Part shown: positions 2,096-26,017 of the stretch, in pieces
Layout: each line of letters starts with the position of its first letter
How positions within the stretch are numbered: the first letter of the stretch is position 1
Assembly: GCA_030651815.1 (NCBI GenBank)
Contig: JAUSBW010000169.1
Span: forward strand, 1-64,000
DNA: 64,000 nucleotides
From: Methanoregula sp.
GTDB lineage: Archaea > Halobacteriota > Methanomicrobia > Methanomicrobiales > Methanospirillaceae
Reading direction: 5' to 3'
Notes under the pieces: generated by a model
Seen by the model: only the letters and a program-made list of their open reading frames with translations
What the model was told of the DNA's origin: nothing
The model's database searches: none
Translations under genes and position numbers: made by a program

Positions 2096-5000
2096 TCACA
2101 TGAAATCCGCTAAACCCAGCTGCTGCTCTTTTTCCTCACCGAACGTGGACTGGATCGCAAGGTCAATCACCTCGACCCGCTGCTTGGTATATTCCGAGAC
2201 CTTGTACTTCCGGCAGATCTCGCGGGACATCTCGAGATACTTCTTCACCGACCCTTCATGCACCGTGGGAATGATATTGCCATTGCACGGGTGCTTACCC
2301 TTGAACTTCGTGCACTTGCCGGCAAGCGGTATCCTGCGGTAGCTCGTGTTGCACTTCGTGCACCGGAACTTCTGCTTTGAGAATGCCGACAGGTTGCCCA
2401 TTAAGTCCCGGATAAAATGGGTGTTGAGCACACGCTCTGCCACATCGTCCACGTCAACGGCCCGGATCTTCTCAGCAAGTACCAGTTCGGCTTCGAGCTT
2501 GTCGGTCATCGTCTTTAGCTGGGTGTACATCGATTCGATCGGGCCTGCCGAGATATCCGAGGTGTCGTGGGTGAACTGGAACCCTTCGAGCTGGGCAGGG
2601 GTACCGATCCGGTTCTCGACCCGGTCGATGAGTTTGACAATCGTCTTGGGCTCAATATAGTTGAGGGCACCAGTGTAGAGTTCGAGGGGATAGTTTTCAC
2701 AAACATCGACGTTTAAGGCTTCCTTGTCGATCTGGGCTGGATCGATCCTGCTCGTCAGCACGAGCGGGGCATCCATGGATCCGCCCCGGTTCTGGGGCAG
2801 GAACGAGCGCGAGAAGTTGATCAGGCCATCCAGCAGGAGCATGATGCAGTCTTCATCCCCATCACACTGGCCAGTGAAGATCCCGTTTGCCACGAGAGTA
2901 TGATCGTCAGCAACCGTCAGGCAGTAGACCCGCTCTTCGGGCGCTGGTACCACATTAATGGTGCGGATACGGTCCGAGATCACGTTCATGCACTCCAGCA
3001 CCGGCACCGCATCCCCGACTTTGAGTTCGAGCGCCCTTATCTTCCGGAGGTACGCGGTGTCCCAGACAAGCATTGCATGATCGGGAGTGACTGAGATATC
3101 CTTTCCAAGTGCAGTTGTGATCCGGAGCAGGGTTACCGGTGACCTGTGGATAGAGACCGTAGTGACCTTCCGGATGTGCATCACGCCATTCGTATCGATG
3201 GTGCGGGTAAAATACGGGCGGGCCGGGTCCGAGTAATAAGTGCCGAGCTGGTCGATGCCCGGCCGGCTCACGTCAAAGTTTTCAAGCACGAACTTCCGTA
3301 TCGGGTGCCGGGTCCATGACCTGCCATCGTACACCTCGATCATGGTATCGCCAAAGAAGCAGTTGCGCCGCTTGGCGGCATGGAAGAACGGATGGGCATA
3401 GCCAACATCTGCCCGGGTGAACCCGACGATCCGGGCGAGCACACCGGCGCTCGTGTGCGGAGCAAGGCCAATCACAAGATGCCCCACGAGATCCTGGGTT
3501 TTCTCCACATTGTAAAACGGGGGCAGACCGTAGCATTTCACCAGCAGATCGTCCATGAACTTTGCCACGTTCACCATATACTCGGCGCAGGAATCCGATA
3601 CCAACAGATCCTGTGCATGGAGTTCAACCACCTGCTTACCGCTCTGGAGATCGTACCCGTGCGTGTCTGTGGTATATCCCAGCGAGCGAAGTTTCTCTAC
3701 AGACACCCGCACTTCATCGGGGCGGATGTGGGTGAGCGGCAGGTCGATCATGTCAAACCGCGTGGTCCCGTCCTTAAAGACCCAGATGTTCCGGATCGCC
3801 CGTAAGATACCCTTCTCCATCGCCTCGACGGACTTCTCCTTCGAGATCATGCCTTTGACGCCCTTGACGAGCGCAACCGCATCGGTTTTCATCCCAAGAC
3901 GTGCCATCACCTTGGCATATTCCCCTTTGAGATCAAGTTTTACCCGCTGGGTGCAGGTGGCCTGGGCGTCACAGCCGGGACACCGGGGCAGCTGGGTTTC
4001 CCTGCCGCACTTGGTGCAGGTGAAAACTGCAACGGTATGCCCCCCGCACTTATCGCACCGGTTGAGATATGTGATCTCCTGGCACTCGGAACAGCGCCTG
4101 CGGCCCACTTCGATCTCGATGATCCCGCTTTCTTTATGGAAGCCAATCTCGGTATCGTTCTGATCAGTCTCCTCGATATGAGCAGAAGCAGACTGAAACG
4201 ACCTCCGGGCACCACCGGTGTCCCCGAGCGGGAAGAGGACATGCGGGGGCGGATTCATCTTGCGGGGCTTGGATTTCCCCGGTCTCCCCATGCGTCCGCC
4301 GATCCGGGTCCCCGATCGGGAACGCATCCTGAACCCGGAAAGGTGCTGGACGAGGGCCAGCTGGGAAACATCCGGGGCACCATTCCACTCCTCGCGTTTC
4401 TTTAAGGTGTCATCCAACCCGAGGCAGGCAATGAATGCCCGGTAGATCTGGATCTTCACGCTCCCGTCCCGCACAACATGGGGAAGGAGCAGGGTTTCGA
4501 GGATATCCTTGGTCACCGGGTCAAGAGGGATCTGAAGATGATCATCAACAATCTTTCCCTTACCCGAAACCGCGTCAGCGAGTTGGCGGATCTGTTCAAT
4601 AGTGATATCGTCCCAGAACCATGTATAGGCGGGATGCAGATATCCACCTGCCCGGGCAAATGCAAGTGCTTCTCCCTCATCTTTGGGGGTTTTTGTACCC
4701 GGCTCGCTGTCGAGCAGCCACCACTCGTTGCAATAACCAGAGGGCACCAGCGGGTGGTTGTTCTCTAAAAATTCCCCGTACGAGATGAGAATCTCCCCCA
4801 CATCGAGGATCCGCTCAATGCCGGGCTGGAGGCGTTTTGCCGTGGCTTCGTCATCGATGCGAAGCACATCGCCATCGGTCAGGCGCACGGTCGGGCCTTC
4901 GATCGAATCCACCGGAACCACACCACAGGCCTTGCCCGGCCGCTCGGTCTTCATCTGGGTGCCGGTGGCAAGGAATTCCCCCAGCACATACAGGGTGGCA

Positions 5001-6010
5001 GGGTGCAGACCGGCTGCGGCAAACCCGGTGTTGCGCGAGCGGCCGTACCGGAGCCGGAAGCCGCCTTTTCTCATCGGGTAGGAAAAGACCGGTCTCCCTC
5101 CGATCAGATCGCGGAGATACTTGTCCAGCGGTTTGATGCCGACCGTTTTTTCCTCGTCACCGGACTTTGAGGCACCGGCAATGAGTTTGTCGAGCCAGTC
5201 CCAGCCCTCCATCTTCATCATCTCGACCCGGCTCTTGAGCTTGCGGGCTTTACCGGCAATACCTTCTCCGATAACGAGCGCCATGCCACCCCGTACCGAG
5301 TTCGTCTCAACCCGGTCGAGATTCCGGTGCCCGGACACCTCCTCTTTTTCGGTTGCTTCGCCATCAATGCAGACCGGGCAGTTCCCGATGATGAGCCGTA
5401 TCTCTGCTTCGCTCGGCAGGTACTGGAGGTTCATGATCGAGTTGTACTGCCGGATCTCCTCGATATACCGCTCAATTTCCTGCTGACGGGGGATGTACCG
5501 GTTGATACCCAGTTTCTGGCGAACATAGTCCCCAACGAGCACAGAGAGTGCCTGCGCAGTCCCGCCGGCACTCCGGATCGGACCTGCATAGAAGATCATC
5601 AGGTACTGGCTGCCATCGTCGTTCTTGCCGAGCTCGATCTTTGCGATCCCTTCGGTGGGGGCTGCAACGACTCCCTCGGTGAGCAGGGCCATCGCCGTCC
5701 GGATGGAATGGTCGAGGATCTCATCCACGGAGGTCTCCCCGAACTTGCAGGCAACAAAGTCGTCGCCGATACGGAGCGCGATCTCCTCCCGCGACATCCG
5801 GGATTCGAGTTCACGGATCCGCACAGCCACCCCCTTGATCCCGAGCAGTGCCTCCACCCGGTCGGCAAGATCGCTGGCTATGGGGATCTCAACATCGAGA
5901 GAAGGGTCGAGGCCACGGGAGCGGGCTTCCTTCGCTATCGCTATCGCATGATGAAGATCATCCATGAGGGACTTTTCATACGCCTCCATCGCGGGCGAGA
6001 GCACCAACAT
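2096..6010 (-). CDS. polC: DNA polymerase II (PolD) large subunit DP2 with intein
   Basis: 1304 aa; zinc-ribbon motifs, [14 protein letters not shown] catalytic motif, C-terminal [11 protein letters not shown]-like motif. Confidence 0.96.
2867..3361 (-). other. mini-intein inside DP2 (165 codons, C-terminal Gln)
   Basis: In-frame insertion between HAAKRRN and CDGDEDC; begins [10 protein letters not shown], contains [10 protein letters not shown], ends [22 protein letters not shown]; no endonuclease-sized insert. Confidence 0.92.
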
Positions 6011-6108: not shown

Positions 6109-6663
6109 TCAAGCCTTATCTTCATCGTCCTGCACATGTTTTACCATCGCAGGAAGACCCGTATCGCCCATCTGCCAGAGGGTCAGTGCAGCGCAGGATT
6201 TGATAATTTCATCGGCATCATCCAGCCGGCGGGTGAGCGGTTCCACTGCCGGCTTTCCTATCCGGCAAAGCGCCCGGGAAAGATAGCCCCGCAGATCTGC
6301 ATCATCGCTTCCCATAGCAGTAATCAGAGGTTCCACCGCAGGACTGCCTATCTCACCAAGGGCAGCAGCACCGTAGCGCCGGAAATCCTTTTCCCTGTTC
6401 AACCGCATTGCAGCGATCATGGGTTCAATCGCCGGTCCTCCGATTCGTGAGAGGGCGACTGCCGCATACCAGCGGTGATCATTGTCCGGTGAATCCGCAA
6501 GTGCCTTGATAAGAACCGGTATTGCAGGTTCGCCGAGCTCCCCGAGTGCCTGCACTGCCTCGTGCCGGATATCGATAGACGGATTTCCCAGAGATGTAAT
6601 GATCTCATTGATCTTCTGTTCATCGGTCGCGTACGGATCGTTTCGGGAATTTTGCTGCGCCAT
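6109..6663 (-). CDS. PBS-lyase-type HEAT-repeat protein
   Basis: Repeats of AVQALGELGEPAIPVLIKAL type. Confidence 0.85.
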   Translation of the reverse strand: MAQQNSRNDPYATDEQKINEIITSLGNPSIDIRHEAVQALGELGEPAIPVLIKALADSPDNDHRWYAAVALSRIGGPAIEPMIAAMRLNREKDFRRYGAAALGEIGSPAVEPLITAMGSDDADLRGYLSRALCRIGKPAVEPLTRRLDDADEIIKSCAALTLWQMGDTGLPAMVKHVQDDEDKA

Positions 6664-6665
6664 TA

Positions 6666-7634
6666 TTACCTCATATTCTTATCTTTACATTCTTTTTTTG
6701 TGTTTCCACCCCGTATCCTGCGCACCAGCGGTTCGACAGCCGGGATCAGGATGGCATCGATTGCATCGGCTATTGCCTTTCGCTCATTGTCATCCGCATT
6801 CTCAAGGAGCTGGATTAAGGGCTCGATCGCATCTGCGTTCTTAAGTTCCCCGATCGCAGTCATCACTTCGATACGAGTCTCTCCATGAGCACCCTTTAAA
6901 AAACCCAGCAGGGGACCGAGTGCAGGAGTGCCGATGGATGCAAGCGCAGATGCGGCTTCTGCCCTTACCATTGCCTCCTCATCAGCAAGTGCGAGGATCA
7001 GCGGTTCAACAGCAATTGGATTTTTTATTTTCCCCAAGGCAAGAGCGGCCCCCCACCGGACATCGGGATCACCCTTTTTAAGAGCTTGGATGAGAGGGGG
7101 GGCTGCCGTATTGCCAATCATGCTGAGTGCATGAGCAGCCCGGCTTCTCACAAACCGGTCATCATCTGAAAGCAGCTGTATCAGGGGTTCAATGGCATCC
7201 GGGTTCCCAATCTCCCCTAATGCAATCGCGGCTTTCCAGCGGACATCATCATCCGGGTACTGCAGTGTTGCAATGAGCAGCTCCACTGCGGGATTCCCAA
7301 TCTTCGAGAGCGCTTCTGCCGCTTTCCACCGCACACCACTGAACTCATCGCGTTTTAATGCGGTGATAAGGGGGCCGACTGCTGATTCATCCCCGATATT
7401 TCCCAACGCTTCTGCCGCCTCGTACTGGATCTGGGGATCTTTATGTTCCAGCAGGCGGGCAAGACCGACGATATCCCGTCTTACTGTAAGTTTTTTCACA
7501 TCCGGCCCAAGAAGCCCTGCCGGATTGATACGATCAAAAAAGGTTAGTTCCACTACGATGAAGGCCATCAGGTAAAGCAGGCGTTTGTACCTGAAAACCG
7601 GCGGGATGAATTCCATCTGATGATACTTTGGCAA
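6666..7634 (-). CDS. HEAT-repeat protein with N-terminal membrane segment
   Basis: Multiple AAEALGNIGDESAVGPLITAL-type repeats; hydrophobic N-terminus. Confidence 0.85.
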   Translation of the reverse strand: MPKYHQMEFIPPVFRYKRLLYLMAFIVVELTFFDRINPAGLLGPDVKKLTVRRDIVGLARLLEHKDPQIQYEAAEALGNIGDESAVGPLITALKRDEFSGVRWKAAEALSKIGNPAVELLIATLQYPDDDVRWKAAIALGEIGNPDAIEPLIQLLSDDDRFVRSRAAHALSMIGNTAAPPLIQALKKGDPDVRWGAALALGKIKNPIAVEPLILALADEEAMVRAEAASALASIGTPALGPLLGFLKGAHGETRIEVMTAIGELKNADAIEPLIQLLENADDNERKAIADAIDAILIPAVEPLVRRIRGGNTKKECKDKNMR

Positions 7635-7981: not shown

Positions 7982-8530
7982 CTATTCTATCTTTTGAACC
8001 TGAAACCAGAACATACAAAGATTTTTTTCGAAATTTTCTGATTCTTTGAATTTATTTCTGATGCATTTCCAGAACTGCTGATCATGATTCCGATTGATCA
8101 GGTGTACCATCTCATGGAATACAATATATTCAACAAGATTATCGGGAAGGTACTGCCCCAGAGAGTTCAGAGTCAGGGTTCCATTCTTACTGCAACTCGC
8201 CCATTTGGAACACATTTTTTTAATGAACAACCGATCCGGAGCACAACCAAGTTCTTGTGAGTAACTCCTGATTAATTCCTGAACCTGTGTTCTGAACTCT
8301 TCTTTCGTTCTGGATTCGAGAGTGATAGTGGCTGATGTCTCTATAGCATCGTGAATAAACCGGTATTTGCGTTCAATCCATTGCCGGTGCTTTTTTAATA
8401 CCCGGTCCTCGTCCTGCCCTTTTGGAAGTACGACAAGTAATGTCCCGGTTCTGAATTCCAGTCTTGGGTGTTTCACATCCCTGTGTGAGACGGTATAAGG
8501 GAAATGAATGGGTTCAGTTTGAGCCAGCAT
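7982..8530 (-). CDS. YgjP/DUF45-like zinc metallopeptidase
   Basis: HEMVHLINRNHDQQFW motif; overlaps the hsdR stop. Confidence 0.85.
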   Translation of the reverse strand: MLAQTEPIHFPYTVSHRDVKHPRLEFRTGTLLVVLPKGQDEDRVLKKHRQWIERKYRFIHDAIETSATITLESRTKEEFRTQVQELIRSYSQELGCAPDRLFIKKMCSKWASCSKNGTLTLNSLGQYLPDNLVEYIVFHEMVHLINRNHDQQFWKCIRNKFKESENFEKNLCMFWFQVQKIE

Positions 8531-11500
8531 AATTTTTCACGCTCTCGATAAGCTTGAGGTATAACTGGTCGATCTCTTCGATGCTCTTTCCCCGCGGTTT
8601 CCCGTACCTGCGGGCAAACCTCTGGATATCCTGTTCTATACCCTTTTTCGCACTCACCTGCGAAATCCAGCCGGGGAACATAGATTTTTTGAGGTCTTCT
8701 GATAGCTGACGGATATCCCTGATAAGGTCTGAGTCTTCTCCCCATTGTATTTCGATCTTCAAAAACATCGAATATTCTAATTCTGATAGCCCGAGCTGAT
8801 CCCGCCGTGCATTCAGCTGTTGCATCTCCCTGATAATAGCTGCACCATCGCGGTAGATTGCTTCATAATCCTTGGATTTTGCTTTCCAGGCGCAGATGAT
8901 CTTCTCGACCCGTTCGAGAAGCGATTCATTGACCGGTGTCTGGTGCCGATCAACCAGAATGAACCGGTTGAGTGTGAAAACGATGTTTGCCGCTTTTTCC
9001 CGCTTGTCGGCTACTTTTTCTTCAAGTACCTTGAGATACTCCGGCCCGAATTCAATCACCGGCAGGTTGTTCTCAACATTCTGGATATCGGTAGTTTTAT
9101 GGATATACTTGATCGTCTTTTCAAAATATTTCTGGACATGGGTTGCATAGTCAGGCTGATTCCTGAGCGCCATCCGTGTGTAATAGGAGTATATTTCTGA
9201 GAACCACTTGTACTGTTCAAAATATTCGAGTTTTATTTTATCAGGGCCGAGGAATTCAAAGACCCTGCGCATCTCCCGGTATGTATCGACAAACTCATCT
9301 GCGATCGTTTCATCACCGGTGAGTAATTCAATAGCTGACAGGAATGTGTCCTTGTCATAGGATCCGATTTTAATATCTTTGAACATGCCGGCAAGCTCTT
9401 CCATCCGTGCCGCAAATTCCTGTGCGATCTCTTCTGTTGAGAACAGAGCGCTGGTGATATCGGTCTCATTGTATTTTTCAAGGGCTTTTCTTATGTCCTT
9501 GAGGATCCCGATATAATCGATGATAAGACCCGCTTCTTTGACACCTTTGTAAGGCCGGTTCGTCCGTGCAATGGCCTGAAGGAGCCGGTGTTCCCTGAGC
9601 GGTTTGTCAAGATACATTGTCTGGAGAATCGGCGCATCAAAGCCGGTGAGGAGCTTGTCAGTGACAATCAGGATTCGGGGATCCTCTTCCCACTTGAAAC
9701 GGTCCCGGATATCATCATTGATCTCGCCGGCATCGTAACCGGGGTTTGATTCCATGACCCCGTCTTTGTAGGAGGCGAGCACGGAATCCCGTTCATCGGC
9801 CTGGTAGGTCATGACAACTTCAGAATATTCCGGTGGGAGGTGCTTGTCGAGTTCCTGTTTGTAAAGGACACAGGCTTTCCGGCTGACCCCGACGACCATG
9901 GCTTTGTATCTGCCATCGACATTTTCCCGGAAATGAGCGGCAATGTCCCGGGCAATAATTGCGATTCGTTTTGGATTCTCCAAAAAGACCTTGATGATAT
10001 TGAGGCGTTTCTTGACGCCTTCTTCAACCGGCTGCCGGTAGGTATCCGGGATCTCTTCGAGTTCGGTTTCAAGGAATATCCGGAGCATCTCCCGGTGGAG
10101 GTTGATACCTGCCTCTTTTTCTAGGCGTGGCTGGTAGGCAATCTTCACCGTGAACCCATCTTCGATTGATTCGCGGATGAAATAGCGGTCGAGGTAGAGT
10201 TCTCCTTCATCGGGGTAACTGAATTCGGTGTAAGTATCTTTCCCGATACGGTTTACCGGTGTCCCTGTCAGGGCAAAGAAAAACCCGTTTTTGAAGATAC
10301 CCTTCCGCATCTGGGCGGCCATAAGTCCGTACTGCGAGCGGTGGCCTTCATCGATGAACGCAACGATGTTCTTCCTTGTCGTGATCGTTTCACCGGGCTG
10401 GTTTTCCAGTTCCTTCTGGAGCCCGCTGAGCTCCTCGGGCCGGAACTTGTGGATAAGGGTGATCATGATGCCACGCCTGCCTTTCCCCTGATCGGCGAGC
10501 AGGACCCGCTTGAGTTCCGGGATGCTCCCGATGATCTCCGGTTTTGTGATAGTGAGCGCGTTATACTCTTCGTAGAGCTGGTCTTCAAGATCGATCCTGT
10601 CAACGATGAAGAAGATCGAAGGGTTCTTCAGCGCGGGCTGGTGATAGAGTTTGTTCGCGGCAAAGATCATCGTGAGGGTCTTACCCGATCCCTGCCAGTG
10701 CCAGATGAGCCCCTTGTTCTTGTCAGTTTTTCCCGCGAGGTTATCGAGGACGCGGTTGACCATCTTGTTTGCCGCACGGTACTGGATGTACCGTGGCAGG
10801 ACCTTGGTGTCCTCTCCCATTTCCCGGCGCATGAACAGGAAATACCTGAGAATGTCAAGCAGGCATTCCGGCTTGAGCATGGCGACCGATGCATCGTGCG
10901 GCTCCATATCCTCGATCTTCCACTCGTCGGTCCTGACCTCATCCTGCCACGGGACGATAGGGAAGAACTTCACTATCTGCTCAGCAGCCATCCCGATCTG
11001 GACGTACTTGTAGAGCTCAGGAATGATCTTCTTGTAATCCCGGATCTGGGCATACGCCGTGTGCCAGTCTTCTGTGAGGCTCGCCGGATCCTTGCACTCG
11101 ATATTGACAAGCGGAATCCCGTTGATATAGAGTATGATGTCGTTCCTGATCCGCTCGGTTCCTTCGTGGATAATCTGCCGGGAGACAATGTACTCGTTGT
11201 TCTCCAGTTTGTCGTAATCGAAGAGCCGGATGTATTCAACGGTCCTGGTCTTTTCGAAACGGACCGGGATGCCTGCCTTCATGAACTGGAGGATCTGTTT
11301 GGCAGCTTCGATGCCCGATCCCCGGCTCTGCAACTCCCGGACGGCAAGCCAGATCTCCTTCTCTTCGATCCCGATGTCTTTGTTGATCTTCTTGATAGCG
11401 CGGATGAGGGGATTGACGAGAAGCGGTTCCTTGTAGCTCTCCCGCTCCAGTTTGTCGGATGAAGTGAGCGTCCAGCCATTTGCCTGGAGCTTTTCGATGA

Positions 11501-11537
11501 TTGGGTCTTCGACGAGTATGAGTTCGAGGGATTTCAT
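8514..11537 (-). CDS. hsdR: type I restriction endonuclease subunit R
   Basis: PD-(D/E)xK-like region (YINGIPLVNIECKDP), Walker A HWQGSGKT, FIDEGHRSQYG, helicase motifs; 1007 aa. Confidence 0.95.
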   Translation of the reverse strand: MKSLELILVEDPIIEKLQANGWTLTSSDKLERESYKEPLLVNPLIRAIKKINKDIGIEEKEIWLAVRELQSRGSGIEAAKQILQFMKAGIPVRFEKTRTVEYIRLFDYDKLENNEYIVSRQIIHEGTERIRNDIILYINGIPLVNIECKDPASLTEDWHTAYAQIRDYKKIIPELYKYVQIGMAAEQIVKFFPIVPWQDEVRTDEWKIEDMEPHDASVAMLKPECLLDILRYFLFMRREMGEDTKVLPRYIQYRAANKMVNRVLDNLAGKTDKNKGLIWHWQGSGKTLTMIFAANKLYHQPALKNPSIFFIVDRIDLEDQLYEEYNALTITKPEIIGSIPELKRVLLADQGKGRRGIMITLIHKFRPEELSGLQKELENQPGETITTRKNIVAFIDEGHRSQYGLMAAQMRKGIFKNGFFFALTGTPVNRIGKDTYTEFSYPDEGELYLDRYFIRESIEDGFTVKIAYQPRLEKEAGINLHREMLRIFLETELEEIPDTYRQPVEEGVKKRLNIIKVFLENPKRIAIIARDIAAHFRENVDGRYKAMVVGVSRKACVLYKQELDKHLPPEYSEVVMTYQADERDSVLASYKDGVMESNPGYDAGEINDDIRDRFKWEEDPRILIVTDKLLTGFDAPILQTMYLDKPLREHRLLQAIARTNRPYKGVKEAGLIIDYIGILKDIRKALEKYNETDITSALFSTEEIAQEFAARMEELAGMFKDIKIGSYDKDTFLSAIELLTGDETIADEFVDTYREMRRVFEFLGPDKIKLEYFEQYKWFSEIYSYYTRMALRNQPDYATHVQKYFEKTIKYIHKTTDIQNVENNLPVIEFGPEYLKVLEEKVADKREKAANIVFTLNRFILVDRHQTPVNESLLERVEKIICAWKAKSKDYEAIYRDGAAIIREMQQLNARRDQLGLSELEYSMFLKIEIQWGEDSDLIRDIRQLSEDLKKSMFPGWISQVSAKKGIEQDIQRFARRYGKPRGKSIEEIDQLYLKLIESVKNYAGSN

Positions 11538-11538
11538 C

Positions 11539-12795
11539 TCACGTCACCATCACCCTTCGTTTGCCGGTCAGCAGTTCGTTCATCAGGCCCTGCTTCAGAT
11601 GTTCGTAGTGGGCGGTGCGCTGGCGCTGGAGGGAGAGTTTGTGATCGATTGTAGTGAGAATGGAAGTGATGTGCTGTTGTTCTTTGAGCGGGGGGAGTAT
11701 GATCGGAGTGTTGAATAATTGTTCTGAGTTCAGGTGTGATTGAGCAGATCGAACACCGATTGCCTTGAAATGGGATTGGCGATGTGAACACAATAGATAT
11801 TTTGAGATAAACGTTGGATCAATTCTCTTTTGATTTGGCGTGAATACTAGATCGTAACCAGCAACCGCAATTTTATCATAGTTAAATAGACCGATATCCC
11901 CGGTGTTCACACCACTTCGAACGATAATAATATCCCATTTATGTAAATATAGATCTTTACCATGAGAAATCGATTTTGGATCAATTTCATTTACAGTATT
12001 CCAATCGATAGAACCACGATCGATATCTTTTGCACAAATCATTGGAATTCCATTCTCTTTTGAGTTGGGGGGTTGAGCAAAACCATATTTAATTTCTCCA
12101 AAATCACCTAACTTCCCAATATCCCATTCTTTAGGCATTATCCCGACATTTTCTTCTTCTTTAAACTCCGTATGCCCGATGCCCTTCGTCATGAGCTCCT
12201 GCATCACGCCCGCCTTGAGGCGCTCGGTCTCCGCAGCCGCTTGCCGCGAGCACTGGATGGCGTCGTCTACGGTGGTGAGGATGGTGGCGATGCGACTTTG
12301 TTCGGGGAGGGGAGGGAGAGGGATAAGTATCTTTTTTACTTGTGAGTCATTGAGGGCCGGGTATTGAGCTCCGACCATCATGCGATTGCATTGATTAATG
12401 ACCTCATTCGAAAAAAGGACGTTCAGTAAATATCTTGGATCGACTGTTCCCTTACTTCGAAGCACTGCGAATCCTGTGGAACAAATCTGGTTATTCAATT
12501 TTTTGGGAACAAGTGCAAACGCTTTAAGATACGGACGTACCTCGGACATGATTACGTCATCAGTTTGCACAACACGACGGGCTCTTGAAGGCGCATCTTT
12601 TCCGATCAGTTCCTTCACTGTGTTAATTACGCCGCTTCCATTTTCAACGGCATCGATATCGATATAGGAGAATTTTTCATGGGGTCTTTGGGTCGGATCA
12701 TGTGATTCAGGATTGATATCGACAATATCCTTCAATTCTGCGATCTTCCATCCTTCTGGTACATCCGCAATTTTCGTGTCTAAAAAAAAGGTCAT
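11539..12795 (-). CDS. hsdS: type I restriction specificity subunit S
   Basis: Two target-recognition domain half-repeats (PEGWKIAELKDI..., PKEWDIGKLGDF...), LPPLPEQ and LPPLKEQ conserved helices. Confidence 0.94.
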   Translation of the reverse strand: MTFFLDTKIADVPEGWKIAELKDIVDINPESHDPTQRPHEKFSYIDIDAVENGSGVINTVKELIGKDAPSRARRVVQTDDVIMSEVRPYLKAFALVPKKLNNQICSTGFAVLRSKGTVDPRYLLNVLFSNEVINQCNRMMVGAQYPALNDSQVKKILIPLPPLPEQSRIATILTTVDDAIQCSRQAAAETERLKAGVMQELMTKGIGHTEFKEEENVGIMPKEWDIGKLGDFGEIKYGFAQPPNSKENGIPMICAKDIDRGSIDWNTVNEIDPKSISHGKDLYLHKWDIIIVRSGVNTGDIGLFNYDKIAVAGYDLVFTPNQKRIDPTFISKYLLCSHRQSHFKAIGVRSAQSHLNSEQLFNTPIILPPLKEQQHITSILTTIDHKLSLQRQRTAHYEHLKQGLMNELLTGKRRVMVT

Positions 12796-14762
12796 CGTCC
12801 CGACCTCGCAGATCGTGATTTTTCTACCGGTTGGGGGGAATATCGTATGAATAATTGTCCGGTTGTGCTTTTAGCGACGACTTTTAATTCCTTGATTCCC
12901 TTCTCTCTCAACTCAAGGATCTCCTCAATATTCTCAAAAAAAATGTCAAAACCTTCAACTGCGTAGGGCACGTTAAAGATTCTTCCAAAAAGGGAATAAT
13001 CAATTGTTCCGATGGGGCCTTTTCCTTCAAGTGTCAGTAGTTTCCCCTGTTTTAACGGGGTGAGAGCATCAGTTTTAAGAACAATTGTAGCTTTAATCTC
13101 AGGAATTTTTTGTTTTCTTCCTCGTAAAAATGTTACAAGCTCTCGGATCGTTCGCTGGTCCTCTTGTGTAATCTCATCGGGTATAGTTAATCTTACTTTA
13201 AGGATACGTTGTATGTCAGATAGATCTGTGTATAATTGACATAGTGCATGAATAGGAGGTGAATCTGAAGTGGGCTCTGAAAATGAGTTTGGTGGGATCA
13301 GAAAAGGGGCAGGCAATCGATCAGTAATTAATTCCAATGTCTCTCCCTGAATCCACTTATCGAAAAGACTATAGATTTGCCGGCCACGTTCGATATCTGA
13401 CACAATATGGTGCATCGAGAAATTGAGTTCTACATCTGGTTTTCCCTTTTGTATTGTGATTGTAAAATTGAAATCCGGATCTTTAATTTCGAATTTTAAC
13501 AGAACTTCCGAGTTAAAAATCTTCATTGGCAGTTTGCTGAGCCGAATTGTACCACTCTGTAATTGGAGATCGACATTAACCACCTCAGATGGTTGAGGTG
13601 CCACAGATAATGCCGGATAACTTGAGATAGCGGGATCGAAAATGAAGACGCCATTCATTTCCCCTCCTCGTATAGAAATAGTACAGTCAGAATCTGTTAG
13701 CATTACAGGTTCGAAGCTCTGACCGGTTACAAATTTCTGAAAAGCCAAAAATTGAGTGTTGTTACCTGTTTTGGAGGTAAGTGTTATTTTAATGTCGCTT
13801 TGAACGTCAGGTCGCGTAGGAATAAGTGATAGATGGGTAATTTTTCCACAGGAGATATTCCGATCCACATGGAAGTCCCGACTTTCAAATATGGGATCGG
13901 ATTTTATCAGAAGGGCCGAATTCCCCATACTATCGAGATAAGAAAATTGGATTGTTTTTACGGCAACAAAATTCATCGCTGCCGCTGCATCCATCTCAAT
14001 ATAATGCAAATCGTAACTGCTCAGGTGGGCTCTCTTTTCTTCATCGATCTTACTATCAATGAAATAATAGGAATGTCTCCGCCTTTTGAGTCGTTCGTCA
14101 ATATCCCCGAGCATTTCCTCAACATGCGGATCGTTTATTGAGTAACCGATAAACGCAACAGAATATATCGCAAGTAGGGATCTGATGTTGCCCCAGACAA
14201 TAGAATCCTTATCGAACGTATCGTAATCATCTGAGGTAATAATTATTGAACCGGGATCTGATAAATCACCATGAATCTTCAATAAAACGGTCTTCTCTGG
14301 ATTGTCAGTCAAACCTGGTAATTCTTCATCGTGAGCAATTTTAACAATCCTATTATTCCCATATGCATATTCGAATAACGGATCGTAGTTTGTTGTGACG
14401 ATATACTTCACACGATTTATCAGTGCGAGTAATTCGTGGACATCACTTCGTTGAGGAGTGTTATCGTAAAGCGTTCTCAATAACTCAATCAGAGAATCCC
14501 GTCCCTTGGCTGCAACATAATAGTCTGCAACTTCCTTTAGTGATACATCCCGTAGGTCAGGAGCACCACTCGGTAATTCACTTAGAGTTTTTAAAATGAT
14601 ATCCCGAAGTTGTGTCCCTGTTGGATAACCTGCATAACTTGAGAACCCGGATCCAACCCATAAAATGACTTTTTCTTCACGAATCAGTTTACATAGAGAA
14701 TCCAGTTCACTGTATGATCCGGAATGATTCGGTACAGTAGTGGGATGAATTGCATCAGTCAT
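12792..14762 (-). CDS. SIR2-domain protein with C-terminal domain of unknown function
   Basis: N-terminus LWVGSGFSSYAGYPTGTQLRD, YIVTTNYDPLFEYA, LLKIHGDLSDPGSIIITSDDYD; 656 aa; 4-bp overlaps with both neighbours. Confidence 0.9.
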   Translation of the reverse strand: MTDAIHPTTVPNHSGSYSELDSLCKLIREEKVILWVGSGFSSYAGYPTGTQLRDIILKTLSELPSGAPDLRDVSLKEVADYYVAAKGRDSLIELLRTLYDNTPQRSDVHELLALINRVKYIVTTNYDPLFEYAYGNNRIVKIAHDEELPGLTDNPEKTVLLKIHGDLSDPGSIIITSDDYDTFDKDSIVWGNIRSLLAIYSVAFIGYSINDPHVEEMLGDIDERLKRRRHSYYFIDSKIDEEKRAHLSSYDLHYIEMDAAAAMNFVAVKTIQFSYLDSMGNSALLIKSDPIFESRDFHVDRNISCGKITHLSLIPTRPDVQSDIKITLTSKTGNNTQFLAFQKFVTGQSFEPVMLTDSDCTISIRGGEMNGVFIFDPAISSYPALSVAPQPSEVVNVDLQLQSGTIRLSKLPMKIFNSEVLLKFEIKDPDFNFTITIQKGKPDVELNFSMHHIVSDIERGRQIYSLFDKWIQGETLELITDRLPAPFLIPPNSFSEPTSDSPPIHALCQLYTDLSDIQRILKVRLTIPDEITQEDQRTIRELVTFLRGRKQKIPEIKATIVLKTDALTPLKQGKLLTLEGKGPIGTIDYSLFGRIFNVPYAVEGFDIFFENIEEILELREKGIKELKVVAKSTTGQLFIRYSPQPVEKSRSARSGR

Positions 14763-15829
14763 TCGTTCTTCCCTCCCACATTCCGGGATTTGGCATCCCC
14801 CATCTTAACCAGTTCCTCTTCCAGTTCCTCAACTGTGGGGAGTTTTCCTTTCATCCGGGTCGGGAGCGCCTTCTTCAGCGTGTAAGTCGATATGCCGATT
14901 GGCTTTTTCATATCGCGGAGTGCGTATTCGGCTATTACATGGTTCCGTGTTTTACAGAGCAGGATGCCGATGCTCGGCTGGTCAACCTTTGCATCCCGCA
15001 TGAGATCGTCCACCGCTGATAGATAGAAGTTCAGCTTCCCGGCAAACTCCGGAGTAAAATCCACAACCTTCAGCTCGATGACTACGTAACAATGGAGTTT
15101 TAAGTGATAGAAGAGCAGGTCGGTATAGAAGTCCTCTCCGCCGACCTCAAGGTGGTACTCGCTCCCCACGAATGCAAACCCCATCCCGAGATCGATCAGG
15201 AAATCCCGCAGGTGGAAAAGCAGTCCCTGGTGAAGATCGTGCTTGGTGTGTTCTTTCCCAAGCGACAGGAAATCAAAATTGTACGGGTCTTTAATGATCT
15301 GCTGTGCGAGCTCCCCTTGAGGGGCAGGCAACCGCTCGCGGAGATTCGAGACGGTTTTCCCCCGCCGGTTATAGAGATCACTCTCTATCTGATGGACGAG
15401 AATACTCCGGCTCCAGCCGTTAGCAATCGTCTCGCGGATATACCATTCCTGCTCATCGGGATCAGAAATTTGATCCAGAATGACACAATTGTGGAACCAG
15501 GGAATTTGTGCAGCAAGCTGCTGCACTAATTGCTCGTTTGACCAAGCCTCGGCAAATTTACGCATATATTTTAGATTGCGCGATGAAAATCCCTTCATTT
15601 CCGGGAACTCGCTGGAGAGGTCCCGGGAGATCTGCTCAATGACTTTTGCCCCCCAGCCTTCTGATTCCTGGCGCTGAAGGATCTCTTTTCCTATCTGCCA
15701 GTAGAGTAAAACGAGCTCGCGGTTCACCGAGAGCGCTGCATGAATCCGGGCAGCACGAATCCTCTCTTTTATTGATTCAAGAAATGTTATATACCCGCCA
15801 GCCACCTCGTTCATACAACGAACCTCCAA
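14759..15829 (-). CDS. DUF1016 (YhcG-type) PD-(D/E)xK nuclease-family protein
   Basis: LVLLYWQIGKEILQRQESEGWGAKVIEQLS..., DLLFYHLKLHCYVVIELKVVDFTPEFAGKLNFYLSAVDD. Confidence 0.92.
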   Translation of the reverse strand: MEVRCMNEVAGGYITFLESIKERIRAARIHAALSVNRELVLLYWQIGKEILQRQESEGWGAKVIEQISRDLSSEFPEMKGFSSRNLKYMRKFAEAWSNEQLVQQLAAQIPWFHNCVILDQISDPDEQEWYIRETIANGWSRSILVHQIESDLYNRRGKTVSNLRERLPAPQGELAQQIIKDPYNFDFLSLGKEHTKHDLHQGLLFHLRDFLIDLGMGFAFVGSEYHLEVGGEDFYTDLLFYHLKLHCYVVIELKVVDFTPEFAGKLNFYLSAVDDLMRDAKVDQPSIGILLCKTRNHVIAEYALRDMKKPIGISTYTLKKALPTRMKGKLPTVEELEEELVKMGDAKSRNVGGKNE

Positions 15830-15931
15830 GGGGATATGATCGATTTGCTGATGTCAGCATTATGATCAAAACACCCCCGGTTTCTAAATCTGATAGTGGT
15901 GGGAACATTCCCGGTATAATTCCCCGTGCAT

Positions 15932-15960
15932 GAACCATTCGAAATTTCTGGATCGTTACC
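15932..15960. repeat. degenerate copy of palindromic repeat
   Basis: GAACCATTCGAAATTTCTGGATCGTTACC aligns with the perfect palindromes at 16071 and 17011. Confidence 0.6.
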
Positions 15961-16070
15961 CGTTATCATCCTGAATGTACCTGCCGGGATTCCTTCCCGT
16001 CCTCTCTGAAATGCCGGGTTATACACATTTATGTGCAAAACAATCAACAGATGGTTTATCATGGCACATC

Positions 16071-16099
16071 GAGCTATCTGGAATTTCCAGATAGTTGCC
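16071..16099. repeat. palindromic repeat, copy 2
   Basis: GAGCTATCTGGAATTTCCAGATAGTTGCC; perfect inverted repeat 16074-16094. Confidence 0.8.
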
Positions 16100-16114
16100 G
16101 ATAACAAAAGAAAC

Positions 16115-16996
16115 TCAGTCATCCTGCTCCTCCATCCTCTCCCGCTTTTCACTTCCTCCGGATATCCTCCCCGACTTCTCCGCAAGGTGATCTTCTTGCA
16201 ACTTCACTCTCCGCTCAAGTTTCTTTAAGTCTTCTTCAGGAGGCAATGTTTCCGGCTTTATCCCCCGCTTCAACAGCAGCTCGCGGATATCTTCGTTGTT
16301 CTGGACGTGTTCTTCGGTGATGGGATCCTCTCCATGGAGATCCCGCTTCTCCACATTGAAGTTCGTGATCTCGGTGGCGAGGTTCTTAGCGGTGATCGTT
16401 ACAGTAGGCAGGAAATCAGCAAGAGGGCGCTTCTCCGGCACATCCATCTTCTGCTTCATATCACGGGTTGTGAACCCACCGAAAAGCGCCTTGTCACCTT
16501 TGCTCCGGATATTGGCAAATCCCTTGTCATCTACCCCACGCTCGTAAATATTCCTAGAGAGTGCAGTTTCTGAATCCTTCAGCTGTTTTCGCGCCCTTAA
16601 CCGCTCCCCAAGCTGGATATGTTCCTCTATGATCTCCTGCTTACGGGTCTGTACCGCGAAGTAACTCTGGGCAAACGCGATCTCTTCCTTGCGGGGATCC
16701 CCGTTCTGCGCTACAAGATAACACGCATACCGGGTCAGCATGATATCCTCAATCTCCCGCTCCCCGCCTTTGGGCACGGGTATCGATTTGTTGACGTCAA
16801 CAAAATGATCTAAAATCGCATGATTTGAGTTTTTACACGATTCCTGAGCTTTTTCGATAACTCTGATAAAATTTCGCCATTCTGCATATCCGAGAAGGGT
16901 CTGTAAATCCCGGGCAAACCAGAATTCCACGCCATCTTTTACGTGGACATAATCTTCGAAGTTCTTGTGCAGGCGCTTAACGATATCGGATCTCAT
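16115..16996 (-). CDS. dinD: DNA-damage-inducible protein D-like
   Basis: WFARDLQTLLGYAEWRNF, ARYACYLVAQNGDPRKEEIAFAQSYFAVQTRKQE, RNIYERGVDDKGFANIRSKGDKALFGG. Confidence 0.9.
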   Translation of the reverse strand: MRSDIVKRLHKNFEDYVHVKDGVEFWFARDLQTLLGYAEWRNFIRVIEKAQESCKNSNHAILDHFVDVNKSIPVPKGGEREIEDIMLTRYACYLVAQNGDPRKEEIAFAQSYFAVQTRKQEIIEEHIQLGERLRARKQLKDSETALSRNIYERGVDDKGFANIRSKGDKALFGGFTTRDMKQKMDVPEKRPLADFLPTVTITAKNLATEITNFNVEKRDLHGEDPITEEHVQNNEDIRELLLKRGIKPETLPPEEDLKKLERRVKLQEDHLAEKSGRISGGSEKRERMEEQDD

Positions 16997-17010
16997 GCAG
17001 TACCTCCGGT

Positions 17011-17039
17011 TCGAACTATTCGGAATTTCCGAATAGTTG
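17011..17039. repeat. palindromic repeat, copy 3
   Basis: GAACTATTCGGAATTTCCGAATAGTTGCC; perfect inverted repeat 17014-17038. Confidence 0.8.
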
Positions 17040-17054
17040 CCTCACCCTCAGCCA

Positions 17055-18842
17055 TCAGTTACCCCCTACATACCCAATCTCTTTGAGATGCCCGGCAATC
17101 TGTTCATCGACCGTGCGGAGTTCTTTTTCCACATCTTTGATCGCAGCCCACGTAGCAGGAATATCAACTTCCTCAACGTCCTTCTGCGGCGAAACGTACA
17201 AGGTCACGTTCAGATTGAAGTCGTTCTTTTCAATCTCTGCAAGCGGAACAACCTTGGAGAACCCTTCAATCTCCTCCCATGAATTCGCCACACCAACAAT
17301 CCTCTCGATGTTCTTATCGGTTATAATGTTCAACTTACGCACGTCAGGATGCTTACCAAACTCCAGTGCAGCATTGATGATGAGCACTTTGCCCCGGTGA
17401 TCGGAACGCTTGTTCTTCCCAAAGAAGAGCAGTGCACCCGGAGCGCCGGTATTATAGAAGAGTTTCTCCGGCGTCAGTACGATGCATTCCAACAGATCGG
17501 CTTCAAGAATCTGCTGACGGATCGCCTTCTCCTTGCCTCCCCGGAAGAGACACCCGTTGTCCATCACGACACCAACACGGCCGTTCCCGTCTTTTGCCGA
17601 GGCGAGCATGTGCTGGATCCATGCCCAGTCAGCGGACTGCCGGTTGGGGAACCCATACGAGAAACGCTGTTTCCAGAACTCACCTTTCTTCAGCTGGTTC
17701 TCATCGTACATGTCCTGGTTCCATGGCGGATTTGCAACAACAACATCGAACTGTCGGATTGCCTCACCATCTTTAAATTTGGGATAGAGAAGAGTGTCTC
17801 CATAGGCCAGCTGAACATTCCGGATATCATGGATATACATATTCATCCGGCCATATGCGAGCGTCTTGGCGTTTGCCTCCTGCCCATAGAGAAAGATCTG
17901 CGTTACTGCATCCGGACCGAATTGCTCCCTGACATGGGTATAGGAGGCGATAAGCATCCCGTTCGATGCCGATGCAGGATCGTACACACTCTCGCCGGGC
18001 TTGGGGTCGAGTACCTCAATTAAGAGCCGGATGACTTCGCGAGGTGTGTACACCTCGCCTTCCTTTGCTTTCTGCGGTGCGAAGTAGCGGAGAATCCACT
18101 CATATGCATCCCCGAGAACATCCGGTGAGACATGGTGAAGTTTCTTTTCGCTGAAGAGCTCGACAAGCTGCCTTAGTATCTCTCCATTTTCCTGGCTCTT
18201 GGCAAACTCAATAAAATCAACGGTATCAAGGACATCGCGAAGTTCAGGGTTCCTCTCAGCAATTTCCTTAAGCGCTTTTGAAAAGATCTCCGGAAGTTTG
18301 ATCACTTCAGCTCTGAGGTTATCCCACAGGTACTCCTCCGGTAGATCGAAATCATGATACATCGCCCGCTTTGCTTCAGCCTGAGCTTCTTGTTCTGTAT
18401 AGCCATCATGAAGGGCTTCTTCTTTTGCCGCTTCATATTCCAGTTCCCATTTATCACTGATACGCTTGAGGAAGAGCGGCAGGAGGATGAATTTGTAGTC
18501 AACCCGGGTCCTGATGATGTCTGCTGCCCGTTTCAATAATGCTTCAAGATCGCTCCGGGTCAGGGTCGAGTTATTTATGTCAAAAATTTCTGTGACCAGA
18601 GAATCCTTGCTTATCAGCTGATAGATCTTTTTTCGGGCATCCATGGCATCGGAGGTGACGGTGAGTCTCCCGGCTTTTCGAAGACGCGACAAAAGGACCG
18701 GAACTTTCTCCGGGGTATCATGCTCAACTTCACCAAGAATTTTTACTGCATCATCGAGACGGAATCCCTCGTTTTTATATTGATCCCAGAGAGTTGAGTA
18801 TCCTTTTTCAACCCATATGGGAAGCGAATTGTTAAAACTCAT
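17055..18842 (-). CDS. hsdM: type I restriction-modification N6-adenine methyltransferase with N-terminal wHTH-like extension
   Basis: NPPWNQDMY motif, APQKAKEGEVYTPREVIRLLIEVLDPKPGESVYDPASASNGML; N-terminal ~80 aa wHTH-like; start taken at MSFNNSLP. Confidence 0.94.
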   Translation of the reverse strand: MSFNNSLPIWVEKGYSTLWDQYKNEGFRLDDAVKILGEVEHDTPEKVPVLLSRLRKAGRLTVTSDAMDARKKIYQLISKDSLVTEIFDINNSTLTRSDLEALLKRAADIIRTRVDYKFILLPLFLKRISDKWELEYEAAKEEALHDGYTEQEAQAEAKRAMYHDFDLPEEYLWDNLRAEVIKLPEIFSKALKEIAERNPELRDVLDTVDFIEFAKSQENGEILRQLVELFSEKKLHHVSPDVLGDAYEWILRYFAPQKAKEGEVYTPREVIRLLIEVLDPKPGESVYDPASASNGMLIASYTHVREQFGPDAVTQIFLYGQEANAKTLAYGRMNMYIHDIRNVQLAYGDTLLYPKFKDGEAIRQFDVVVANPPWNQDMYDENQLKKGEFWKQRFSYGFPNRQSADWAWIQHMLASAKDGNGRVGVVMDNGCLFRGGKEKAIRQQILEADLLECIVLTPEKLFYNTGAPGALLFFGKNKRSDHRGKVLIINAALEFGKHPDVRKLNIITDKNIERIVGVANSWEEIEGFSKVVPLAEIEKNDFNLNVTLYVSPQKDVEEVDIPATWAAIKDVEKELRTVDEQIAGHLKEIGYVGGN

Positions 18843-19778: not shown

Positions 19779-20432
19779 TCAGCCGTTCTGCTTTATTGCT
19801 GCCTTTTTCTTGCGTTCAATAATCTTTTTGACCTTTTTTAACCGGAAGAGGTCTTCCCGCTCCCGTTCGTCAATGGCGTTTTTGATATACTTTTTCTGTT
19901 TTTTTAATTCGGGGATCATTATCTGCTCAAGGGCGTTCACCCTTCTCCGGGTTATCTGGATCTCCCCCCCGAGCCTTTTTAAGGAAGTCTCCGTCTCCGC
20001 AAGCTCGATTATCAGATCCAGTTCCATCTCGAACTTTTCGGCTGCCTCATCGATCCTGCCGCTCACCCCGATGATACTGTAGCCCCTCTCTAAAACACTC
20101 TTTGAGACTCTCTTTTTCTCAAGTACCGGAACAGGAACTCCCATGATATTTTTCCCCTTGATATCGATGAACAGGCCCTTCCTTGTTGCAAAGGAGGCGG
20201 ACTTGAGGGTCACAGAATCATCAACGGCGAGAGCGGTTAAGAGCGAGCGCTGTGCCGAGATGGCAACACTCTCCAGCTCATCCCGCGATTTCGAGACCGA
20301 CTCCATGATGTGGAAGAATTCCTGGATGAGTGCATCCATCTTCTCACGGAGAAGATCCCTCCCCTGCTCGGCAAGCTTTATCTGTGCATTTTTCTTGATG
20401 AGCTCCATCCTCGTGGGGTTTACCTGTTCCAT
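19779..20432 (-). CDS. atpD: A-type ATP synthase subunit D
   Basis: VNPTRMELIKKNAQIKLAEQGRDLLREKMDALI; operon position. Confidence 0.95.
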   Translation of the reverse strand: MEQVNPTRMELIKKNAQIKLAEQGRDLLREKMDALIQEFFHIMESVSKSRDELESVAISAQRSLLTALAVDDSVTLKSASFATRKGLFIDIKGKNIMGVPVPVLEKKRVSKSVLERGYSIIGVSGRIDEAAEKFEMELDLIIELAETETSLKRLGGEIQITRRRVNALEQIMIPELKKQKKYIKNAIDEREREDLFRLKKVKKIIERKKKAAIKQNG

Positions 20433-20435
20433 GAC

Positions 20436-21833
20436 TCATCCCTTTCTGTATGCCGGGTGATACTTCCTGATGTAGTCGAGTTTTATCCGTTTCAATTCTT
20501 CTTCCGGAAGCATGGACATAAGATCCCAGCCAATCTCCAGCGTACTTTCAATGCTCCGGTTTTCATCTCCCTGTGTGATGAATTTCTTCTCGAACTCATC
20601 CGCAAACTTCAGATATTTCTTGTCCAGTTCGGTTAACGCTTCTTCACCCACGATCGCAACCAGCCTCCGCAGGTCTCTCCCGTAGGCGTATGAGGCATAG
20701 AGCTGGTCTGCCACGTTCCTGTGATCCTCCCGCGTCTTTCCCGCACCTATGCCGAGGTTCATGAGCCGGGAGAGACAGGGAAGGACATCGATAGGCGGAT
20801 TTGCCCCCCTCCTGTACAGATCCCGCGAGAGCACGATCTGCCCTTCGGTAATATAGCCGGTGAGATCCGGCACCGGATGGGTGATATCATCATCGGGCAT
20901 GGTCAGGATGGGGATCTGGGTGATGGACCCTTTTGCCCCCTTGATCCGCCCGGCACGTTCGTAGAGGGAGGCAAGGTCTGTATACATGTAGCCGGGATAC
21001 CCTCTCCTTCCCGGGACTTCCTCCCGTGCCGTTGAGATCTCTCTCAATGCCTCACAATAGTTGATCATGTCCGTCATAATCACGAGGACATGAAGGTTGT
21101 GGGTAAACGCGAGATATTCTGCAACGGTAAGGGCGCACCGGGGAGTGGCGATTCTCTCGATGGTCGGGTCATCAGCAAGGTTCATGAAAAAGACCACGCG
21201 TTCAAGAGCACCGGTCCTTTCAAAATCATCCATAAAGAACGATGCCTCTTTATAAGTAATCCCCATGGCAACAAAAACCACAGCAAATTTTTCTCCTTCC
21301 CCAAGCACCTTTGCCTGTCGTGCGATCTGGGCGGCTAGCTTGTTTGCAGGCAGACCGGCACCGGAGAATATCGGGAGTTTCTGACCCCTGACAAGAGTAG
21401 TTAATGCGTCAATAGTGGACATTCCTGTCTGGATGAAGTCTGCTGGTTTGTCCCTCGCATACGGGTTGATGGGCATCCCGTTGATATCCAGACTTGCTTC
21501 CGGGATGATGTCAGGACCTCCATCCCGGGGCTTTCCCACACCGTTCAGGATCCTCCCCAGCAGATCAATGGACACATCTATTGTCGGCGGTTTGCCGGTA
21601 AACTGCACCCGGGTCTCTTTATTATCGATTCCGCTGGTACCCTCAAATACCTGAATCACCGCAAGGTCCCGCGAGATATCCAGAACCTGCCCTGTTCTCA
21701 CTTCACCGTTAGGCAGCGTGATTTGTGCGATCTCTCCATAGGAAACCCCCTTGACAGACTGGACGAAAATCAAAGGCCCGGAGACATAGTTGACCGTCTT
21801 GCACTCTTTTGTCAGCAGGCTGACCGGCTTCAT
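20436..21833 (-). CDS. atpB: A-type ATP synthase subunit B
   Basis: 465 aa; [40 protein letters not shown]. Confidence 0.96.
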
Positions 21834-23569
21834 CTCTCCACCTCCAGTGCAGCAATGTTCTTATCGATCTCCCCGATAAGATCCTTGATTTTACTGACAT
21901 CGGCCAGTTCCTTCATCCTGCCAATCTCCTGTTTTAAGGGCAGTTTCAGGATTTTGTTCAGGGCAACTCCCCGGTTCATCGCTTCACTCGTCCGATTATA
22001 GAAGTTGAGGATCACCTTGAGCATACAGTACTGCTTCTCAAGCGGACAGAAAGAATCGATTTCATGATAGGCACTCTGCTGGAGGAAATCTTCCCTGATC
22101 ATTCGGGTAACCTCCAGAATTGCCTTCTCGCTCTCGGGCAGGGCATCAGGACCGACCAGCTGCACGATCTCCTGTAACTCAACTTCTTTCTGGAGCAGGT
22201 ACATGGTCACGTCCCGCATCTCTTTCCACTCATCAAATCCGCTTTGCACAAACCATTCCTGAATGCTGTCCAGATAGAGCGAATAACTTTTTATCCAGTT
22301 CACCGAAGGGAAATGTCTCCTGTACGCAAGATTTGTATCCAGTGCCCAGAACGTCCCGGCAATTCTTAACGTATTCTGGGTGATGGGCTCTGAGAAATCA
22401 CCTCCCGGGGGGGATACCGCACCGACAATGGTAATGGATCCCAACCGTTCATCTGACCCAAGGCAGACAACCCTGCCGGCACGCTCATAGAACGCCGCAA
22501 GTCTCGTAGCAAGGTAGGCGGGATAGCCTTCTTCGCCCGGCATCTCCTCTAACCTGCCCGAAACTTCCCGTAATGCCTCGCCCCATCGGGATGTGGAGTC
22601 AGCCATCAGCGCAACGTCATATCCCATGTCCCGGTAGTACTCTGCCATGGTGATGCCCGTATAAATCGAAGCCTCCCTGGCCGCCACCGGCATGTTCGAT
22701 GTGTTTGCAATCAGGATCGTTCTCTGGATAAGGGGCATATTCGTCCGCGGATCCACAAGTTCGGGAAATTCTGTCAGGACATCCGTCATTTCATTTCCCC
22801 GCTCCCCGCAGCCGATATACACAACGATCTGGGTATCCGACCATTTTGCCAGTGTCTGTTCTGCCACCGTCTTTCCCGTACCAAAACCACCGGGGATCAT
22901 GGCAGTTCCCCCTTTGGCCACCGGGAACATGATGTCAAAAATTCTCTGCCCGGTAATAAGGAGCGAACGCGGGTCCTGCTTTTTTTTGTAGGGTCTCCCC
23001 CGTCTCACGGGCCATTTCTGCAGCATTGTTATGGAAGTGCTGTCATCGAGAATGCAGATGGGGTCTTCAACAGTAAACGCACCACTGCGGATCTCCTTTA
23101 TGGTTCCGGAAACCGGGGGAGGAACCATGATCCTGTGCTCTATATTATACTCCGCTACCGTCCCAACGATGTCTCCGCCAGAGACCGTATCTCCCTTTTT
23201 TGCAGATGCGACAAAATCCCACTTCTTTTCCTTATCAATGCCGGGAACGGAAATTCCACGGGATATGAAACTGCCACTTCTCTTAACCAGCACCGGCAGT
23301 GGCCTCTGAATGCCGTCATAAATAGAGGAGAGGAGCCCCGGACCGAGCTCAACTGACAGGGGCGTTTCGGTGTTTACAACTTTCTCGCCAACTTTCAGGC
23401 CGGATGTGTCCTCATACACCTGAACAACTGCCAGATCCCCGTCAAGGCGTATGATCTCCCCGTTCAGCTCCTCGACACCTACCTTCACCACGTCATACAT
23501 CTTAGAGCCCCTCATCTGGTCCGAAAGAACCACAGGCCCCGAAATTCTCGAAATAACTCCCGCAATCAT
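21830..23569 (-). CDS. atpA: A-type ATP synthase catalytic subunit A
   Basis: 579 aa; P-loop [52 protein letters not shown]. Confidence 0.96.
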
Positions 23570-23574
23570 GACCC

Positions 23575-23895
23575 CTACCTCCTAATCACGATATTATACC
23601 CGATTGCCCTCTGCAGCAGCCGTTCGATGTAACTTGTTCTCTCGAGACCCTTGACCCTGGCGGGAATCGGAATAATGATCGGCCGGTATGTCTTTTCGAT
23701 TTTTTCCAGCAGTTTTTCGTCCAGAGCTGCCATGAAATCTTCACTTACCGCAACGATTCCCGTATCGTCCTTATATATCAGGGGGGGTATGATCTTCTTT
23801 GCCTCGTCCAGATTTGATACCTCGATTACATCCACACCGGCAAGCCTGAACCCCGGTGCCGAATCGGGATCGGTGACCACAACAAACCTATACAT
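23575..23895 (-). CDS. atpF: A-type ATP synthase subunit F
   Basis: 106 aa; [12 protein letters not shown]...[10 protein letters not shown]; operon position. Confidence 0.93.
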
Positions 23896-25910: not shown

Positions 25911-26017
25911 ATCCTCTTTTTTTTGTGTTTATTGATATGATCCTGATTAAAAATTCTCAATCTGCTGTACATAATGGTTGCCAAACCAGCGGGATGCTCC
26001 GTGTTCATTTCACGGTT

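Follow-up and report, generated by a model that had tools for sequence, protein, structure and literature searches.

Proteins of the SIR2 family often destroy the cell's own nicotinamide adenine dinucleotide (NAD+). An effector gene inside an hsd operon is known from the type Ic restriction-modification (RM) system EcoprrI, in which the embedded anticodon nuclease PrrC is kept silent by EcoprrI and is released by the Stp protein of phage T4 (PMC2610378; PMC12707154). In the relevant passages of Makarova et al. 2012 (PMC3506569), Sir2 is named as one of the proteins associated with type I RM and immune proteins themselves are proposed to inhibit their associated toxins, and both the association and the coupling hypothesis are thus found there in general form. 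Here we describe a type I RM operon with an embedded SIR2 gene, located at 7982-18842 on the minus strand of a 64,000-nucleotide (nt) stretch of Methanoregula sp. DNA (contig JAUSBW010000169.1; the whole stretch is referred to below as the window). The idea of Sir2-RM coupling is not new, having been proposed in 2012; added here to what those passages contain are the slot directly before hsdS, its occupation by several SIR2 types, the joint replacement of SIR2 and hsdS, and the presence of His-to-Asn variants.

We give about even odds to the reading that the SIR2 protein is a PrrC-like back-up effector on the type I RM system. HsdM, HsdS and HsdR would perform ordinary DNA methylation and cutting, and the SIR2 protein, co-produced with HsdS from overlapping genes, would probably be silenced by the Hsd complex or jointly with it. 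A virus that blocked or escaped restriction would cause SIR2 to be released or activated, perhaps via its C-terminal region, and the active protein would hydrolyse NAD+ and stop both cell and infection, following the logic of PrrC/EcoprrI with an NADase in place of the tRNA nuclease. The basis of this reading is the gene order, the overlaps, the intact catalytic motifs, the repeated SIR2 types before hsdS and the joint replacement of SIR2 and hsdS in one RM backbone, from which we infer the NADase activity, the silencing by Hsd, the trigger and the abortive outcome. As with PrrC, the effector gene lies inside an hsd operon and a back-up function upon failure of restriction is proposed; PrrC, however, is an ATPase-regulated tRNA nuclease for which silencing by Hsd has been shown, whereas the window operon has a SIR2 gene, placed directly upstream of hsdS, for which such silencing is putative. 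No PrrC/RloC-type AAA_13 ATPase with a nuclease domain was found by profile search of the proteins of the window operon. If SIR2 does guard the type I RM system, the PrrC rule, by which blocked restriction leads to shutdown of the cell, would hold for NAD+ loss as well as for tRNA cleavage, and in methanogenic archaea as well as in bacteria, and the reading of anti-restriction proteins and of plasmid transfer would be affected. Literature searches, with most subscription papers and bioRxiv preprints outside their coverage, turned up no paper in which SIR2 genes embedded in type I RM operons were studied functionally, none in which SIR2 appears alongside both HsdS and HsdM, and none that combines it with DUF1016 and type I restriction.

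According to the list of open reading frames (ORFs), the genes of the operon follow one another in the order hsdM, dinD, DUF1016, SIR2, hsdS, hsdR and YgjP. The SIR2 gene (12792-14762, minus strand) encodes 656 amino acids (aa) with a match to Pfam SIR2_2 (1.5e-27, residues 121-255), and overlaps both the preceding DUF1016 gene and the following hsdS by 4 nt. The hsdS gene (11539-12795, minus strand), for a specificity subunit with two target-recognition domains (Methylase_S in two stretches, 6e-35), is spaced by 1 nt from hsdR, which in turn overlaps YgjP by 17 nt. An initial annotation, made from the letters of the window, had described this seven-gene minus-strand run with its overlaps, and it is borne out by the ORF list and the family profiles. 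The coupling of SIR2 and DUF1016 to the RM genes, also suggested there, agrees with the overlaps from DUF1016 to YgjP and does not extend to hsdM and dinD: because of the spacings, not mentioned there, of 58 nt between hsdM and dinD and of 285-300 nt between dinD and DUF1016 (depending on the start chosen for DUF1016), tight overlap spans five genes (DUF1016-SIR2-hsdS-hsdR-YgjP) and not seven. The type I gene set is complete, with an N6-methyltransferase, two target-recognition stretches, and HSDR_N with a helicase motor in one operon, and catalytic motifs were intact where inspected, namely NPPW in HsdM, D...ELK in DUF1016, TTN(125)YD and KIH(164)GD in SIR2, and HExxH in YgjP.

The SIR2 domain (residues ~20-262) matches ThsA (profile, 4e-31), KomC and DSR2 by sequence and by predicted fold, and shares with them the TTNYD and K-I-H-G-D motifs. 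The catalytic N125 and H164 are retained, H164 being the conserved active-site His that had been pointed out in KIHGD, and the nearest solved relatives are NADases; NAD depletion by the window's SIR2 protein is plausible given that both residues are kept. The C-terminal region (residues 263-656; 12795-13937, minus strand) differs from those of DSR2, ThsA and KomC. It had been called unrecognised, and it has indeed no Pfam family of its own; its predicted structure, modelled alone, had a pLDDT of 70 and a pTM of 0.61, and a Foldseek search of this model against the PDB returned nothing below E 0.1. The PADLOC AbiGii profile was matched by three of four relatives (best 4.6e-6) and by the window's C-terminal region at 4.9e-4, and Pfam AbiGii_2 was matched by two of the four (best 0.0017), whereas the window protein gave no match at E<=1. 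This likeness to AbiGii, from the lactococcal abortive infection system AbiG, is confined to the C-terminal region of SIR2 and is a weak lead, not an assignment.

Full-length relatives of the window protein, designated SIR2a, are few (loci L067/L072, L068, L069, L070/L073, L071 and L074); that of Methanocalculus (L067/L072) is 43% identical to it, and L074 is from Myroides. In a scan of genome contigs six loci were found, of which two archaeal ones and that of Myroides extend well past the SIR2 domain. Relatives from phages and viral contigs align to the SIR2 domain only, and the C-terminal regions of L002 and L074 gave no matches against plasmids.

Assignment of the window operon to described SIR2 systems was rejected in each case tried. 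For DSR1/DSR2, the protein has 656 aa against models of ~1215-1263 positions, and the Dsr2 score was 22.6 bits against a cut-off of 1400. For Thoeris, no TIR (ThsB) match was found among the seven operon proteins, and the similarity to ThsA is confined to the SIR2 domain. For MADS, the MAD2 and MAD5 equivalogs scored 64 bits against a cut-off of 720 and 46 against 400, and for SIR2-HerA, which likewise has a SIR2 effector, no HerA/DUF87 was found among the operon proteins.

For the survey of recurrence, the SIR2_2 family was searched in 232 genomes of the class, and the flanks of the 56 places obtained were read. Seventeen of them are part of a type I RM locus or of the remnant of one, and at 12 the SIR2 gene is directly upstream of hsdS (the window, L067, L078, L108, L125, L128, the second SIR2 gene of L129, L130, L139, L144, L145 and L148). 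The two genes overlap by 4 nt in the window and by 1-17 nt in nine others, and are separated by gaps of 16 nt in L108 and 57 nt in L145. The other five RM-associated places are the first SIR2 gene of L129, an hsdM-SIR2 remnant (L147), and SIR2-HerA pairs that fill the same RM slot (L153-L155). HsdM_N was found in 138 of the 232 genomes, so that most type I systems do without SIR2. Besides the window, the only SIR2a gene in an RM context is that of L067 (hsdM-SIR2-hsdS, overlaps of 4 and 1 nt, without dinD and DUF1016). Another SIR2 type, SIR2b, occupies the slot in a second RM operon of the window's own genome, L078 (contig C274, 7071-17624: hsdM, a 187-aa ORF, SIR2b, hsdS, an Mrr-like nuclease, hsdR and a short YgjP), which is only distantly related (hsdM similarity 1.5e-97), and the L108 operon opens with an EcoEI-type hsdR. 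Outside the class, where 40 loci were read, the orders hsdM-SIR2-hsdS (L193), hsdS-SIR2-hsdR (L163 and L165) and DUF1016-hsdS-SIR2-HerA-DUF262-like-hsdR (L196) were seen.

A chance packing of functionally unrelated defence genes into an island would fit the gain and loss of DUF1016, dinD, RhuM, HEPN and Mrr genes among these same operons. The recurrence of one slot across RM families speaks against it, as does a rough estimate of the chance expectation, by which fewer than 0.1 SIR2 genes should stand directly before hsdS against the 12 observed, a count inflated by kinship among genomes, for which reason independence was weighed separately, by the distant L078 operon, the EcoEI-type hsdR of L108 and the changes in the SIR2b tree; this explanation was already disfavoured and is considered very improbable. 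A hybrid of type I RM with a SIR2 protein is well supported by this recurrence, the unit that recurs being SIR2 beside hsdS, in several RM families and with several SIR2 types, and the genomic evidence supports a functional link of SIR2 with RM. The initial annotation had proposed recurrence in other genomes as a test of a hybrid RM/SIR2 system; the SIR2 gene before hsdS recurs as described, and the seven-gene set is not the unit that is conserved, so that the earlier interpretation is supported in part.

The closest relative operon, L148 of the same genus, shares the RM backbone of the window (hsdM 91%, dinD 78%, hsdR 85% and YgjP 72% identical). The stretch that separates dinD from hsdR differs almost throughout, save for conserved parts of hsdS (hsdS 39%), and consists of DUF1016-SIR2a-hsdS in the window and of SIR2b-hsdS-HEPN in L148, and the SIR2a and SIR2b profiles align over the SIR2 domain only. 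The slot has therefore received different SIR2 proteins, and the specificity subunit differs along with them. DNA similarity between the two loci ends ~45 nt past dinD, and the 285-nt gap between dinD and DUF1016 (15830-16114, minus strand), which breaks the run of tight overlaps, is possibly an internal promoter or an exchange boundary. Tentatively, and with the balance of our judgement against it, SIR2 and hsdS might form an exchangeable effector-plus-specificity cassette in type I RM systems of these archaea: the assembled enzyme would keep SIR2 in check, and inactivation of the enzyme by a virus would set SIR2 off. Such a cassette would be a PrrC counterpart acting through NAD, and in another class of it a SIR2 protein lacking the His would use a different chemistry. 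The window and L148, with the same RM backbone and different SIR2 and hsdS genes, make the coupling directly testable.

Several observations weigh against a PrrC-like role. The first is the failure of the C-terminal model to match a fold in the PDB. The second is the presence of Asn at the position of the catalytic His in eight of the 11 SIR2b proteins from embedded genes, the occupant of L148 included. Solo relatives are common and are known for both SIR2 families (L068, L070, L071 and L074; plasmids L156-L161), so that this type of protein can do without RM genes. Finally, a SIR2-HerA pair that lies among RM genes in S. thermophilus gives protection when cloned by itself (PMC11514479).

The Asn variants were found embedded in L125, L128, L129, L130, L139, L144 and L148, and solo in L127, L131-L134, L136 and L143. 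Their K-V/I-N-G motif is conserved and the asparagine of TTN/TPN is kept, L148 having TPN and also NGS, and they are conserved rather than decayed, perhaps with a different chemistry. Substitutions at KomC H146 (H146N) and DSR2 H171 (H171A), which we take to be the same position as the His replaced in SIR2b, appear in the list of PDB entries as engineered changes. With Asn at this position in most SIR2b occupants, NAD depletion is not to be assumed for the slot as a whole. Such conservation, with Asn for His in most embedded SIR2b proteins, would suit a protein that, instead of depleting NAD as a toxin, binds it and modulates the RM complex, for example by restraining HsdR or tying restriction to NAD status. 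The His is, however, kept in the window, L067, L078, L145, L147 and L193, the window protein has NADases as its nearest solved relatives, and solo SIR2b genes without RM genes in their surroundings have the Asn variant too; we regard a modulator as improbable.

The solo homologues, in archaea and on bacterial plasmids, bear more directly on the possibility that SIR2 is an independent single-gene anti-phage effector merely co-transcribed with the RM genes, which, like DSR2, would use its own C-terminal part to sense a phage product; the slot before hsdS would then be a tolerated landing place in which overlapping genes keep hsdS translated. RM linkage has been repeatedly gained or lost, with at least five changes between the embedded and the solo state in the SIR2b tree, and was present in none of the seven loci read for SIR2b on bacterial plasmids. 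The C-terminal region varies between SIR2 types, and the protection by the cloned SIR2-HerA pair agrees with autonomy of the effector. Such an effector does not account so readily for the position before hsdS, mostly with overlap, in several RM families and with several SIR2 types, a bias that exceeds general clustering in defence islands, nor for the joint difference of SIR2 and hsdS while hsdM, dinD, hsdR and YgjP stay. We consider it a real possibility, at roughly one chance in three, beside the PrrC-like back-up effector.

The gene for the DUF1016/YhcG PD-(D/E)XK nuclease (14759-15829, minus strand; Pfam YhcG_C 1e-60, DUF1016_N 1e-48) is missing from both of the closest operons, L148 and L067, and is therefore a passenger; dinD is missing from L067. 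DUF1016 occurs near SIR2 again in L069 and in the RM locus of L196, whose DUF1016 protein is 49% identical to the window's. DUF1016 and DinD are thus optional passengers, as had been anticipated. The ATG at 15814, preceded by GGAGGT, is a likelier start for DUF1016 than 15829, and Shine-Dalgarno-like sequences were seen ahead of dinD, of DUF1016 at this ATG, and of SIR2.

The remaining genes of the operon, all on the minus strand, are as follows. The hsdM gene (17055-18842, 595 aa), for the type I DNA N6-adenine methyltransferase subunit, matches Pfam N6_Mtase (3e-105) and HsdM_N (1e-15); its start was set by alignment with L148 and L067, an ATG at 18911 adding 23 aa not present in the relatives, and a TTTAAATA box lies ~119 nt upstream. 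The dinD-like passenger (16115-16996), with a Bro-N domain, matches NCBIfam DNA damage-inducible protein D (5e-108) and PADLOC PDC-S13. The restriction subunit gene hsdR (8514-11537) encodes a nuclease and a SWI2/SNF2 motor (NCBIfam hsdR 1.2e-199; HSDR_N 2.5e-33), and the YgjP-like zinc metallopeptidase with HExxH (7982-8530; Pfam YgjP-like, 7.5e-27) is encoded by the last gene of most related operons as well.

Further arrangements were seen in other SIR2-containing RM loci. In L108 (3374-14998), which has EcoEI-type hsdR, SIR2 and hsdS, a RloC/PrrC-like AAA_13 protein is encoded on the opposite strand. In L129 (5799-10604), hsdM and hsdS flank a tandem pair of SIR2b genes that overlap by 4 nt, and a RhuM gene precedes the pair. 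SIR2 with HerA within type I RM operons was seen in L153 (394-8398), L154 (5698-13504), L155 (4771-14045) and L196 (5027-15947); HerA/DUF87 is present in L153, L155 and L196, HerA of L154 was assigned by similarity, and the companion genes are Ymh (L153), a DUF262-like gene (L155 and L196, by eye) and DUF1016 (L196).

Elsewhere in the window, two HEAT-repeat-like proteins (6109-7634) adjoin the YgjP end of the operon, and the large subunit of DNA polymerase D (DP2; 2096-6010) has a match to an intein splicing domain at residues 945-1004. Two adjacent archaeal/V-type ATPase gene clusters, both apparently complete, lie at 19779-28273 and 30282-37381; subunit I was confirmed in each, and one alpha/beta-type subunit was confirmed in the second.

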